From positions 104,017-168,016 of the forward strand of contig WNNJ02000818.1 of NCBI GenBank assembly GCA_012934845.2: a stretch of DNA of 64,000 bases, read 5' to 3'. Position numbers and translations under genes: made by a program. A model generated the notes under the pieces. That model did no database searches, was not told the origin of the DNA, and saw only the letters and a list, made by a program, of their open reading frames with translations. Position 1 is the first letter of the stretch; each line of letters starts with the position of its first letter. This DNA comes from Pomphorhynchus laevis. Lineage: Eukaryota > Acanthocephala > Palaeacanthocephala > Echinorhynchida > Pomphorhynchidae. Below are positions 10,723 through 56,790 of this stretch, piece by piece.

Positions 10723-11863
10723 AATTGAATAAACATTATTAGAATTAAATATACATATATCATCAATGTATCGAAACATATTTTTCATATATTTATATAG
10801 TTTAGATTTAGCTTTTAAACAGTTATGAACAAATTCATATTCTATAAAAACAAGGCAGCATAATTGGGCTACTATTACCTCACATTGGAACACCCTTTAC
10901 TTGTCTAAATATAGATGCCCCTACTTTTAAATAATTTTGATTTATCAAAATATTTAAAGATTCTATTAATTTAATTAATCCATATATTTATATTTACTTG
11001 ATGGTTTAATTTTTGTTAAATAGGCGTTATAATTATTATAACATATATATGTATATATTTTTCAGAATATGAGATTAATTAATTTTACTAACGCTTCTTT
11101 AAAATCTACTAAATCTAGATTTGTATAAAGCGTACTAAAATCGTATGTATTTATATTTTGAAAATTTATTCCTTTTGTCTGTTTTAAAAATTCTTTTGTA
11201 GAATTAATACTGAAATAGTGTTTTATACCAGTATTAATTTCGATTACCTTGCAATATTTTTTAAAATGTGCTTTAATTACTTTAAGTATTTTATTCATAT
11301 AGACAGAAAGTGGTTTTAATGTACATTTAAACGCACTACATATGAACCCAGGTTTTATTGGATTTTTATGTAATTTTGGATTCCAATATAATATAGGTAT
11401 AGTTTTATTATCTAATTCAACCTTTATACCCTTTTTATCCATTATAGAACAGTGACTTGTAATAATTGTTTCTAAACTCAACTCACTACGTTCATATGTT
11501 GGATTTACATTTAAATCATTAGAATTAACCTCTTTCACTAGTATATCATAATAAAGCTTTTTGCATATGAAGACAAAGTTATTACTAGCTTTATCAATAG
11601 TTGTTATTATATAGTTATCATTTAATTTAGTAAGTTCTTTATACATATCTTTATTAATTTTATCTTTCCTTTTGTAATTGTTCGCTATTTTTATTTTATT
11701 TTTAATTTTATCAAACATATATAATCTTTCCAAATGTTTATCTTAGATATATTCGAGCTTTCACTATTAATCAGCTTACTGAAGTAATCATTTAAGTTAT
11801 TATATAACGAATTGTAAATTTTATTTTTGTCGTTGTTATTATTTAATCTATATTTATACCCTT

Positions 11864-12178
11864 GGACCTGAGACAGATAAAATACTAAAATGGATAGCAG
11901 CCAAATCTGCTGATCGTAATAAGCTTGCATACAGCGAATGTATTTCTAGGCTGAAATCAAAAATCAGTCGCCATTGCAGTTAGTGCATCGGTTTGTATAC
12001 GTGCTACAAGGCTTAGAATAAACGAACAAGCACAGTATTATCAAACATAGTAAAAGATGGGCAAGCGTCTAAGATTTACATCAATGACTGATCAAAAAGC
12101 AAACAAATTTAAGGATATTATGTGTATTTGTTGTTTATTTTTATATTAAAAACTGGTATTTAAAAAAAAGAAAAAAAA
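11864..12178 (+). mobile_element. Lineage-C RLE element, 5'-truncated 3' end, inside Naiad A1
   Basis: A 315-bp insertion flanked by the 14-bp target duplication ATATTTATACCCTT (11850-11863 and 12179-12192), ending in an A-rich tail. Allowing one frameshift, it encodes GPETDKILKWIAAKS, LKSKIS and AIAVSASVCIRATRLRI. This aligns with the C-terminus of the element at 53280-56688 (GPRALKLLKDIAS, LKRKISFSIARASSLCLR). The insertion point in the Naiad is the same as for that element. Orientation is antisense to the Naiad. Confidence 0.85.
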
Positions 12179-12464
12179 ATATTTATACCCTTTTGATAGC
12201 AGCTTTCTTAATTCACAATTTTCAATTAATTCTAGATTATGGGTACATATATGTTCATTTATTTTATCAAAACTAAGACTTTTACAATTGCATTCTGTTT
12301 CCATTATGTCTCTAATATTATTGTTACATATTGATTTTAATTTTTTATTATATTTACAAATTTTTTGTTCTAATGGTGGTAGGAGTTTATACCTTATTTT
12401 AGGAATATATTTACTAATATCTGACCCTATTATTTCTTTTCATTTAGAATTATTTAAAAGTCTG

Positions 12465-47759: not shown

Positions 47760-48346
47760 TCAGATCAGCCAACTGAATTTAAGTATTTAATATTATTTGT
47801 AATTAAAAGCTATAAAAATGTGTTTTGCATGATGATAAAGTTATTCCTAGCTTTATTAATAGTTATATAGTTATATGTTATATAGTTATCATTTAATTTA
47901 GTAAGTTCTGTATACATATCTTGATTAATTTGATCTTTCTTTTTATAATCGCTTGTAATTTTCATTTTATTTTTAATTTTATCAAGGATATAATTAAATA
48001 TATAATTATATAGATTAATATATAATATTTCTAAATTTTAGTCCTGGATATATTAAAGCTTTCGCTATTAATCAGCTTACTGAAGTAAGAATTAAAGTCA
48101 TTATATAACAAATTGTAAATTTTATTTTTGTCGTTGTTATTATTTAATCTATATTTATACCATTTCGATAGCAGCTTTCTTAATTCACAATTTTCAATTA
48201 ATTCTAGATTATGGGTACATATATGTTCATTTATTTTATCAAAACTAAGACTTTTACAATTGCATTCTGTTTCCATTATGTTTCTAATATTATCTTTACA
48301 TATTGATTTCAATTCATTATTACAATTACAAATATTTTGTACTAAT
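47760..48346 (-). mobile_element. Naiad copy F, linker region
   Basis: Minus strand: terminal-type boundary at about 47765-47790, then the fingers start (ITSDYKKKDQINQDMYTELT, about 47900) and the CxC linker frame 48312-48031 (ICKDNIRNIMETECNCKSLS, EHICTHNLELIENCELRKLL, then SKWYKYRLNNNND). This copy keeps the RLE target site uninterrupted. Its upstream part continues at 51472 beyond an RTE insertion. Confidence 0.85.
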
Positions 48347-52055: not shown

Positions 52056-53279
52056 AATCTAGATATACACCTTCTTTATCATCAATATTGGTTTTGTTAA
52101 GAATAAGGCTTTCTGGATAAATTTGTTCACTAATTGAATAAAAATTATTAGAATTAAATACACATATATCATCAATGTATCGAAACATATATTTCATATA
52201 TTTATATTGTTTAGATTTAGTTTTTACACAGTTTTGAACAAATTCATATTCTATAGAGCTTAAAAACAAGTCAGCTATAACGGGGCTACTATTACCACCC
52301 ATTGGAACACCTCTTACTTGTCTAAATATAGATGTCCCTACTTTTAAATAATTTTGATTTATCAAAATATTTAAGGATTATATTAATTCAATTTTATCCA
52401 TATATTTATATTTATTTGATGGTTTAATTTTTGTTAAATAGGCGTTATAATTATTATAACATATATGTATATCGTTTTACGAATATAAGATTAATTAATT
52501 TTACTAACGCTTCTTTAAAATCTACTAAATCTAGATTTGTATAAAGTGTACTAAAATCGTATGTATTTATATTTTAAAAATTTATTTCTTTTGTCTGTTC
52601 TAAAAATTCTTTTGTAGAATTAATACTGAAATAGTGTTTTATACCAGTATTAATTTCGATTACCTTGCAATATTTTTTAAAGTGTGCTTTAATTACTTTA
52701 AGTATTTTATTCATATAGACAGAAAGTGGTTTTAATGTACATTTAAACGCACTACATATGAACCTAGGTTTTATTGGATTTTTATGTAATTTTGGATTCC
52801 AATATAATATAGGTATAGTTTTATTATCTAATTCAACCTTTATACGCTTTTTGTCCATTATAGAACAGTGACTTGTAATAAGTGTTTCTAAACTCAACTC
52901 ACTACGTTAATATGCTGGATTTACATTTAAATCATTAGAATTAACCTCTTTCATTAGTATATCACAATAAAGCTTTTTGCATATGAAGACAAAGTTATTA
53001 CTAGCTTTATCAATAGTTGTTATTATATAGTTATCCTTTAATTTAGTAAGTTCTTTATACATATCTTTATTAATTTTATCTTTCCTTTTGTAATTGTTTG
53101 TTATTTTCATTTTATTTTTAATTTTATCAAATATATAATCTTTCCAAATGTTTATCTTAGATATATTCGAGCTTTCACTATTAATCAGCTTACTAAAGTA
53201 ATCATTTAAGTTATTATATAACGAATTGTAAATTTTATTTTTGTCGTTGTTATTATTTAATCTATATTTATACCCTTTT
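52056..53279 (-). mobile_element. Naiad copy G, RT part up to the RLE insertion
   Basis: Minus strand: palm (52365-52070: GVPMGGNSSPVIADLFLSSI, MFRYIDDICVFNSNNFYSIS), fingers (52897-52574: ILYWNPKLHKNP, VYMNKILKVIKAHFKKYC), 53110-52907 (ITNNYKRKDKINKDMYKELT), and the start of LNNNNDKN at 53260. It continues beyond the inserted RLE element at 56689. Confidence 0.87.
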
Positions 53280-56200
53280 TAATTCAGTTACCCTAATGAG
53301 TAACTGAATTTTTGAAAATTCAGTTACTCATTGATTCTCGGTACTTATTCTTTACAAAAAAAAGAATTTTCCTACTATTATTGTTTTAATTTATCAATAA
53401 TAAATAAAAACAATAATAAGATTTCGACAACGAAAACCATCGACGACATCGACAACGACAACCATCGACGACATCGACATTAAAAAAGTTTGCGAACTGA
53501 AGTAAATACATTTATTTATTTGGGCTAATAAATTAACTACTTACAATAATAATGCCTAAAGGACGTCCTGACAGTGTATTGAAATGCTGCAATTGCAATG
53601 GACAGGCTGCAAAATGCAAAAACTGCAAATGTGTTAAGGCCGGTCGAAAATGCACAACATGTAGAGTGGGCGGATGTATCAATAAGACGAATATAAGTAC
53701 ATCGCCCGATGTATGTATTTTAACTGGAATTCCGGAAAATAATATATACAGAAACGCTATAGAATCAGAATCTTCGCAAAGAAATGCATATCAAAATCAT
53801 GCAAACAGAACAGTAATTACTGATGCTACTCAGATTGTATCTGTGAATAATGGAATTTCTAATAACTTAGAAATTTGTAATATTGAGGGGATATATCAAG
53901 TGGTTATTCAATGGAAGCCAAATATCATGGTGCTCCCTCGATGTTCTGCAAGTAATACTATAATTGATACTATCGCAAACTTCTATTTCGATGTTGCACG
54001 AAAAAATAATAATGAGAACTCTGTTCTCAAGTCTGCTACAGTTTTTTTACAATGCGTTCTCCAAAGAATTCCATCGAAAAAAGTTAACGTGATTCGAAAA
54101 ACATTAGAGAACAGACTGGCTTTGTGGTCAACAAAAAATATAAAGAGCTTTTTGACGAGGCCAATTACCTACAAGTAGCTTTTAGTGAACCTAGAAAAAA
54201 TTCACATATGACGGATTGGAAAAAGAATTATGTTAGACTAATGTTACGAGGGAAAGTTGCTGCAAGTTCCGCGATTCTTGATAACAATGATTCGTCAGGT
54301 CCGCTAGGCCCTAATGTTATGGTTGGATCTTCATCTGTCAAAGAAGTGCTTGAAAATCTACACCCTATCTAAGAAAATCTACATCCTGATTCTCTTCTGT
54401 CATCACCAATTCATGGAACGATCACACATCACTCTGTACGCTTCACGCAAATTGACGAAGACGCTATCATCAAAGCTTGTAAAAAGACTAACGGAAGTGC
54501 AGGACCGTCAGGATGTGATTCGAATCTATGGAAATTCATGCTCACAGGCTTCGGAAATCATTCACGTAACCTTGCCAGGGCTTTGGCTGAATTCACAATT
54601 CGATTAACTACTGATAAAATTCCTCCTGGTGTTCTTGATGCGTTTACGACATGTAGGCTTGTCGCTATCCCTAAGAAATCTGGGGGCATAAGACCGATAG
54701 GAGTGTGTGAAGTTACGAGACGCATAGTATGTAAAGCCATACTTGAAGTGGTAAAATTCGACTTGCAAGACGTGGCTGGAAAGAGTCAACTGGCAGCATC
54801 ACAACGTGGCGGAATTGAGTTTGCTATTCATTCCATCAAATTCGCATTTATGTTGAATAAACAACGCTGTGTTCTTGCCGTGGATGCTTTTAACGCATTT
54901 AACTCTTTAAATCGACAAGCTGCTATTCACAATATACAATACATTTGTCCTTCGTTGGCTTGTGTTCTTGCAAAAACTTACAGAACTGACGCTCAACTAG
55001 TGCTTGGCGGTACGAGCATATTTTCTCGAGAGGGGTTCACACAAGAGGACCCCTTAGCTATGGCGGCTTTCTTGATGGCATCACTTCCGTTGATCAACAA
55101 AATTAAAAACAGTGTTCCCAGCATCACACAAGTTTGGTCTGCGGATGATGCAAACTTTGTCGGTACTATTGACGAGTTAAATATAGTATGGAATGTATTG
55201 AAAAGCGATGGACCTCAATACGGATATTTCGTTAACGCTAAGAAAACACAACTGCTTACTCATCCATCTGAAATGAAGCAAGCATGCCCATTGAAAGAAA
55301 TTGGAATATCATCGGATGGTATTATGATACTTGGCATTCCTATAGGCACTACCGAGTATGTAGATTCGGTTGCACTTGATAAATCTCAAAGTTGGACTCG
55401 TCTACTTGATCGTTTAGTAGAAATAGCCAAAGTTGATCCACATGTATCTTATATCGGTCTTACAAAATCAGTACAATGGAAATAAACTCACTTTTTCAGA
55501 AATACAACATTTGAATGTGGGCATTTGTCAACGCTGTTGACCATACTAAAAGACAAGCTTTTACCATCTTTAACAAGTCGAACCTTGAATCATGATTGGT
55601 GGACAATATTGACCTCACCTCTTAAACTAGGAGGTCTAGGCGTATTAGACCCCATTTTCACACCCACACTGGAGTATGAAAACGCACAACTAATCTGTAA
55701 TACTTATGATTCTGAATATACAGGAGAAACTCTGCGACAAGTACAAGCAGATGTTATAAAAAGTATTTCTTGTCAACGAATTAATGTTTACAAGAACCGT
55801 TTAATTGATGTCAAACAAAGGGCTCAACAAGCAGTATTGAATGCAATTAACCATGCTACTCAGAATTGCGCTTCATCATGGCTAAGTGCGCTTCCTCTAG
55901 CCGTTGATAAATTTCATCTCCATTCTTATGAATTTAGGGATGCCATATGTTCCAGATATGGATGGAATCTACCAGATCGAAACAAAAAAAACATGTATAT
56001 GCGGTACAACAAATGGCATTATTCACGCATTATCATGTAAACGCGGTGGTGTACCAATAATCCGTCACAACGATATTCGGAACACGATCGCTTATGCATT
56101 ATCAGAGATATGCCACGGCGTCGAAGTCGAACCAACTTTGCAAAAGATTCCAGACAGCTTAGAATTCATGAATAATTCAACAACGAAAAATAACAATGCG

Positions 56201-56688
56201 CGCCTAGACATTTTATGTTATGGACTACAGGACAATCGATATGAGTGGACGTTTTTTGACGTCAATGTTTTTTCAGTACATGCTCCGTCATATGCCAGCA
56301 GTTCGCCTCTCGCCGCCTTTGAATATAATGAAAATCGCAAAAACAGCAAATACAATGAAAGAATTGTCAGTGTGGAAGAAAGCAAGTTTATACCATTAAT
56401 TTTTCATCATCAGGAGGAGTTGGACCGCGAGCTCTTAAGCTACTCAAGGACATTGCCTCGATATCATCGAGGTTAAAATCAGAAAAATATAGTGATGTAT
56501 TGGTTCACCTTAAACGCAAGATTAGCTTCTCGATTGCACGTGCTTCTTCACTATGTCTGCGAATGCCGCGATCAAGTAGAAGACATCCAATCTTTCCTGA
56601 CAATAAATCTCATTTATAGGCCCGTTTACGGGAACCTAATTTCTGTAAATTAACTTTTCTTTTTTAATAAATAATATTACAAAACAAA
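53280..56688 (+). mobile_element. Lineage-C RLE non-LTR retrotransposon inserted in a Naiad
   Basis: A 3409-bp insertion bounded by the 16-bp duplication ATATTTATACCCTTTT (53264-53279 and 56689-56704). The 5' leader has inverted and tandem repeats. One coding region, lightly broken: N-terminal cysteine-rich domain, RT, CCHC plus restriction-like nuclease, C-terminal helical tail. It ends in an A-rich tail (TTACAAAACAAA). It is antisense to the Naiad and placed at the same base as the 315-bp relative at 11864. The domain order puts it in the R2-like (RLE) supergroup; the exact clade is uncertain. Confidence 0.87.
53552..56583 (+). pseudogene. Lineage-C RLE protein (CXC domain, RT, nuclease), disrupted
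   Basis: ATG at 53552. Residues about 11-45 form a cysteine-rich module (CNCNGQAAKCKNCKCVKAGR then KCTTCRVGGCINK), similar to a TSO1/tesmin CXC fold that binds DNA. RT: VAIPKKSGGIRPIGV (54663), LAVDAFNAFNSLNRQ (54878), FTQEDPLAMAAF (55036) where QGDP is usual, VWSADDANFVG (55134) as the catalytic box, and LGIPIGTTEYV. The nuclease has CICGTTNGIIHALSC, IIRHNDIRNTI, ARLDIL and FFDVNVFS (56010-56275), i.e. the CCHC and D...D signature. Frameshifts near 54170 and 55990 and in-frame stops at 54370 and 55483 disrupt it. The tail GPRALKLLKDIAS identifies the copy at 11864. Confidence 0.82.
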
Positions 56689-56790
56689 ATATTTATACCC
56701 TTTTGATAGCAGCTTTCTTAATTCACAATTTTCAATTAATTCTAGATTATGGGTACATATATGTTCATTTATTTTATCAAAACTAAGAAG
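56689..56790 (-). mobile_element. Naiad copy G, linker remnant
   Basis: Continues copy G on the far side of the RLE element: complement of HICTHNLELIENCELRKLLSK. It breaks off at about 56790. Confidence 0.8.

Follow-up and report, generated by a model that had tools for sequence, protein, structure and literature searches.

The RLE (restriction-like endonuclease) retrotransposons of the acanthocephalan Pomphorhynchus laevis insert repeatedly, and at exactly the same base, in the coding sequence of another retroelement, a Penelope-like element that we take to be of the family Naiad (the name comes from a first-pass annotation of the region). Two such inserts were analyzed in a stretch of 64,000 nucleotides of contig WNNJ02000818.1 (assembly GCA_012934845.2, positions 104,017 to 168,016), here called the window. 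The hotspot that they mark is real and base-precise in the genome: the 3' junction is fixed, target duplications were read in five copies, about ten subfamilies use the site in independent hosts, and its counts stand beside those of control positions in the same host. The Naiad site is not the usual home of these elements.

Two inserts at one base of the window

The longer insert, a 3.4-kb RLE retrotransposon here called lineage C, occupies 53280..56688 on the forward strand with broken frames, and is bounded by a 16-bp target-site duplication, ATATTTATACCCTTTT, read on the forward strand at 53264..53279 (5') and 56689..56704 (3'). The second insert (11864..12178, forward strand) is a 5'-truncated RLE element of 315 bp with an A-rich 3' tail, which belongs to another subfamily, the family of loci L063, L072 and L078, and lies between two copies of the 14-bp duplication ATATTTATACCCTT, at 11850..11863 and 12179..12192 of the same strand. 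These lengths hold to within ±1 bp, as the first A is possibly part of the A-rich tail. The junction base of both inserts is CT|ATATTTATACCC, and both are antisense to their Naiad host. A third Naiad copy keeps the site empty (48150..48180, forward strand, variant TATTTATACCATTTC), and from 48150 onward it was read there without interruption (TCTATATTTATACCATTTC). The two inserts, their duplications and the empty site had been described in the first-pass annotation and were recovered here at the stated coordinates. The annotation had also considered the two inserts to be separate events, and this was upheld: no similarity between the 3.4-kb and 315-bp inserts was detected by blastn within the window, and the window element (L086) is 33% identical in protein to L072, which represents the family of the short insert in a longer copy, so the two must have been inserted separately.

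The host of the lineage-C insert is coded on the reverse strand. Its RT (reverse transcriptase) side of the site was followed over 53000..53263, 97.5% identical to 11584-11863, and its GIY-YIG side lies at 56705..56788, with the homology stopping near 56788. The host protein was read at locus L032 as a single frame of 905 amino acids, in which a GIY-YIG motif precedes the RT and SKGYKYR stands in between. As judged by eye, GVVYLIQC..GLQYIGKT comes before an RT with YIDD, which places GIY-YIG N-terminal to RT, a likeness of the host to the Naiad/Chlamys Penelope-like elements; a Pfam search of this frame gave no match at E up to 1. The target lies at the SKGYKYR codons of this permuted (Naiad-type) Penelope element, as the first-pass annotation had proposed, and its base has been hit many times independently by RLE elements. 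The motif is kept in a relative that is 30% identical (LLSKGPNYR, against LLSKGYKYR in the host). Adjoining the nick, the host codes a run of asparagines, which on the target strand reads as the TTA-like repeat GTTGTTATTATTTAA; the host run beside the nick contains GTTGTTATTATTT.

Frequency of occupied, empty and control positions

The 249-Mb assembly (3242 contigs) was searched for empty and occupied sites. The uninterrupted site occurred 2259 times with up to three mismatches, and its reversed control was not found. In the first 30 site loci listed the site was uninterrupted at the expected index in 29, and the thirtieth (L051) was uninterrupted too, at another index. An A-run joined to the site gave 55 matches with up to two mismatches, and none for the control. 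Twelve of these, with the prefixes AATCAA, AATATA and AAACTA, proved to be the empty site in a native variant and were removed, leaving 43 A-tailed junctions at the exact base. Linker sites, which the first-pass annotation had proposed to score as occupied or empty, stand at 43 A-tailed junctions against 2259 empty copies. The junction pattern was searched in one orientation only, so that all counted junctions are antisense to the host by construction, and the list misses junctions without an A-rich tail. Under uniform insertion of 3145 clade ends (occurrences of the 3' motif described below), about 0.014 ends would be expected at the 2259 sites.

As controls, an A-run was joined to five positions of the conserved host region. 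No matches were obtained with TTAATTCAC, two with TATATGTTC (at least one of them a native variant) and two with TTATTTTATC (both native-looking). The control TATTTATGTT, a stretch found in 17 of 30 host loci, shares its first seven bases, TATTTAT, with the site and gave two matches, one of them exact. Since this control begins identically and yet gives a single exact match, a context longer than TATTTAT must matter; the first seven bases alone were rejected as an explanation of the hotspot. The fifth control, TTATTTAATC, 12 bp upstream of the site, gave 36 matches, seven of them exact, with one match for its reversed control. Because of this count, a second junction was recognized 12 bp upstream of the main one. 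From the five control counts, the hotspot is thus a local one, made up of two junctions separated by 12 bp. In the window, the second A-tailed junction lies near 53252 and reads AAAAAATTATTTAATC...; the 36 genome-wide matches were obtained with up to two mismatches.

Elements found on the site

Thirty junction loci were read. They comprised 25 RLE-type retrotransposons, three loci with an A-run and no assigned RLE element (L062, L066 and L076) and two native variants (L088 and L090). The 25 on-site RLE copies represent about ten subfamilies. Two of the copies were assigned on short matches, L080 through its protein and L077 through 83 bp of its 3' end. Nine subfamilies were placed in a protein tree made of homologs only, and their representatives are 28–45% identical pairwise in protein. 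Within each subfamily the host matches stop at different points, and host pairs are 83–100% identical over the shared stretch (the L078 comparison covers 28 bp only). Since host ends and host identities differ, the insertions within subfamilies must be independent. Between subfamilies, host matches can stop at a common point, as in L061 and L089.

Target duplications of 14, 15, 15, 15 and 16 bp were read in five copies, namely both window inserts, L070, L074 and L079. At L082, AAAAAATATTTATACCCTTT, which is the same 15 bp plus an A-run, stands twice in tandem at the 3' side, which looks like renewed use of the site after its restoration. The tail of L069 consists of a repeated A-run plus TATT(T) units, a stutter that may reflect slippage on the target primer. 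The host variant GATAGCATT is common to nine junction matches, of which one (L087) was read; the nine may go back to the amplification of one composite, or to a host subfamily that is favoured as target.

Copies elsewhere in the genome

The distribution of the same elements away from the site was also analyzed. Only four of 41 lineage-C matches are on site (L001, L020, L025 and L029, with the window copy among the four). The remaining 37 are off site, 27 by reading of their ends and 10 by absence from the junction list, which makes 31 of the 41 ends read. One off-site copy, L016, lies inside a Naiad at another position, and L002 starts in a region 75% similar to a Naiad. For the short insert's family (85 candidates) two of 40 scored places were in the junction list, and for the L069 group (96 candidates) three of 40; the 40 copies scored per family are the best-scoring and hence non-random, and their status comes from the junction list. 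Further on-site copies beyond the scored ones are L063 and L072 in the former, and L070, L074 and L082 in the latter.

A motif of the 3' untranslated region (3'UTR) shared by the clade, GRCCCRTTTGMGGGWAMC, occurs 3145 times with at most one mismatch, a number that is no count of insertions because tandem arrays are included. As a clade sample, 40 of the first 41 listed places among the 3145 were taken; L112 is cut by the contig end, and among the 39 ends with flank at most one is on site. The entry point of this candidate, L118, into a Naiad is ambiguous by up to 7 bp: it is either the site itself or a position within that distance upstream. The surroundings of the other ends examined are AT-rich DNA or another RLE copy, at the end itself or nearby. 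The first-pass annotation had raised the possibility of a retrotransposon specialised on another retrotransposon, and had named ends in unrelated sequence as the observation that would speak against it; for the copies examined, most ends were of this kind.

Off-site flanks were compared with the site. Ten of 69 ends without an A-run of five were dropped, as were flanks containing TATTTATAC, and 55 were kept. Off-site flanks start with T in 81% of cases, the flank being defined as starting after the A-run. The 55 flanks match the phase TTATTATTATTA (z 3.8), with z −2.0 for the shifted TATTATTATTAT, and do not fit the Naiad site (z 0.9); 11 of the 55 begin TTA-repeat-like. Duplicate flanks were found among off-site copies (L008/L011 and L026/L030).

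Some 3' ends are joined or close to other RLE copies (L093, L095, L096, L099, L100, L114, L116, L121, L004, L013, L024 and L026), and in L099 and L100 another RLE frame starts about 20 and 70 bp after the A-run, as in head-to-tail arrays. At G000:C147:170517-181487, 24 listed copies of the 3'UTR motif lie on one strand with a spacing of multiples of about 244 bp, apparently a satellite made of the RLE 3' end.

Explanations of the hotspot

We consider it probable that this RLE clade prefers TTA-repeat-like DNA and that the run of asparagine codons beside LLSKGYKYR in Naiad is a hotspot for it. Elements of a large radiation of RLE non-LTR (non-long terminal repeat) retrotransposons, which insert by target-primed reverse transcription and would loosely prefer DNA that is AT-rich and resembles TTA repeats, would meet in this run, next to the LLSKGYKYR codons, a strong docking sequence, and a base-precise hotspot would result. 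Since the 3' junction is constant and the 5' end variable, target-primed reverse transcription would begin with a bottom-strand nick at CT|ATATTTATACCC (CT|ATAT), where synthesis would be primed, and a second cut of the top strand, 14–16 bp downstream, would give rise to the duplication. What we infer here is which strand is cut first and which second, and that the target is recognized through the TTA-like run beside it. This preference, with the run as docking sequence, is favoured because the variant TTATTATTT stands upstream in all five occupied copies with that flank and in 14 of the 31 empty copies (Fisher test, 0.031 one-sided and 0.047 two-sided), and it is ranked above a weakened, inherited specificity for Naiad. 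Several points weigh on the other side. The upstream-run effect comes from five occupied copies only, and host subfamily could explain it; the first bases of the hotspot (TATTTATACCC) are out of TTA phase; nine motifs were tried, of which the TTA phase fitted best, on off-site flanks read on the 3' side only; no 5' target copy was found in L064, L077 and L082, on-site truncated copies whose RLE part ends in the stretch read; and the match to R2 (8gh6, 9nl2) outside the RT, in the CCHC/RHN part, is weak.

If Naiad is, or was, the home target and the remaining copies are off-target by-products of an inherited and weakened specificity for the linker, the agreement of nine tree subfamilies, 28–45% identical, on one base would fit, as would the insufficiency of TATTTAT alone and the retention of the motif in a 30%-identical relative (LLSKGYKYR and LLSKGPNYR), which would imply a stable target. 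A similar weak specificity is reported for crocodilian Utopia (PMC4640811). The few on-site copies (4/41; 2/40 and 3/40 in the junction list; at most 1/39) and the poor resemblance of off-site flanks to the Naiad site (z 0.9) count against this account, which we hold to be possible but rather doubtful. A slightly more tentative proposal is that the whole RLE radiation shares an ancestral recognition of the codons for LLSKGxxYR of another retrotransposon; if true, the target would be stable, the host element could not easily change it, and each insertion would inactivate a host copy. Strict specialisation, with the Naiad linker as the sole normal target of an RLE retrotransposon, could draw on the two window inserts and the four lineage-C copies (the window's included) at one base, but 37 of the 41 matches to lineage C and 38 of the 39 clade ends sampled lie elsewhere, and 38 of 40 places in the short insert's family and 37 of 40 in the L069 group are absent from the junction list. 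It was rejected for lineage C and, within the sample taken, for the clade, and appears very improbable overall. What stands of the first-pass interpretation is the repeated, base-exact RLE insertion, which proved to be wider than had been thought (about ten subfamilies); specialisation on Naiad does not.

The site might instead be fragile or open DNA on which any A-tailed element lands, and three of the 28 A-tailed loci read (L062, L066 and L076) indeed carry no RLE assignment. The other 25 are RLE elements despite the presence of other retrotransposon types in the window, the 3' junction always falls on a single base, the duplications that were seen are near-constant, and three AT-rich positions at most 80 bp away are unused, all of which makes this unlikely. 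Least probable of all is that one RLE-in-Naiad composite was copied with its host, or that assembly duplicates were counted. Such copying would agree with the nine matches that carry the host variant GATAGCATT (L087 being the one read), with the duplicate off-site flanks (L008/L011, L026/L030) and with the shared end point of some host matches of different subfamilies (L061 and L089). The subfamilies are divergent, however, and within each of them host ends differ and host identities range from 83 to 100%; a single duplicated composite, which the first-pass annotation had named as an alternative, was excluded on these grounds for the 25 loci read.

Comparison with known systems and significance

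Dong, of the R4 clade, has TAA repeats as its target, and Tx1L has Tx1D. The apparent TTA-phase preference of the off-site junctions would resemble that of microsatellite-preferring RLE families (some HERO; Dong), and the present case differs from these families in its additional single-base hotspot in a Penelope element. Some RLE families are microsatellite-specific (PMC4640811). With Tx1L the elements share a transposable element as target, and 'other TEs' (transposable elements; PMC8869645) and 'transposons' (PMC4640811) are listed among known targets. The difference is that the Tx1-clade endonuclease is of the apurinic type (PMC4640811), whereas the elements described here are of the RLE type, with a Penelope-like retroelement as their target. 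Utopia, which inserts in the U2 small nuclear RNA gene, similarly combines a precise preferred target with insertions elsewhere, but its off-target junctions often resemble the U2 site (PMC4640811), whereas here there is no resemblance to the Naiad site. With R2 the elements share an RT, and weakly also a C-terminal CCHC/RHN part, that aligns with the R2 chains 9nl2 and 8gh6, together with a fixed insertion base in multicopy sequence. R2 is described as specific for the 28S gene, whereas most examined copies here lie elsewhere, and the hotspot falls in protein-coding sequence of a transposable element. In the literature searched, the coverage of which was partial, we found no account of a Penelope element serving as a hotspot for RLE elements.

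The site amounts to a natural, many-fold replicated experiment on the choice of base by RLE retrotransposons, in which the same site is used by about ten divergent subfamilies while thousands of empty copies and measurable near-misses serve as controls. It is also a case in which one group of retroelements has repeatedly interrupted the coding sequence of a second.

Structure and classification of the inserted elements

The RT matched Pfam RVT_1 (E 3.6e-11; 2.9e-12 for L021), and its best PDB relatives by profile are R2 proteins; two other proteins in the Pfam search of L021 gave no RVT match. Across 50 homologs, CxC..H..C, RHN and two aspartates (D796 and D813 in P0001) do not vary. Marks of target-primed insertion are present (3' tail, 5' truncation and duplications of 14–16 bp in five copies), and strict site specificity of the R2 type, with most copies at one target, was not found. 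Other retrotransposon types are also present in the window, from their reading frames. The 3'UTR motif GGCCCATTTGAGGGAACC is not supported as a conserved hairpin, because it would have three pairs only, none of them changed on both sides.

In the window copy of lineage C, the broken frames of the forward strand hold an N-terminal Cys cluster (53552-54178), the RT (54538-55485) and the CCHC, RHN and RLE region (55525-56040 and 55904-56476). The 3'UTR motif GGCCCGTTTACGGGAACC lies on the same strand inside 53280..56688. At the 5' end of this element, a self-comparison of the window revealed imperfect self-complementary stretches at 53295-53332 and 53376-53418.

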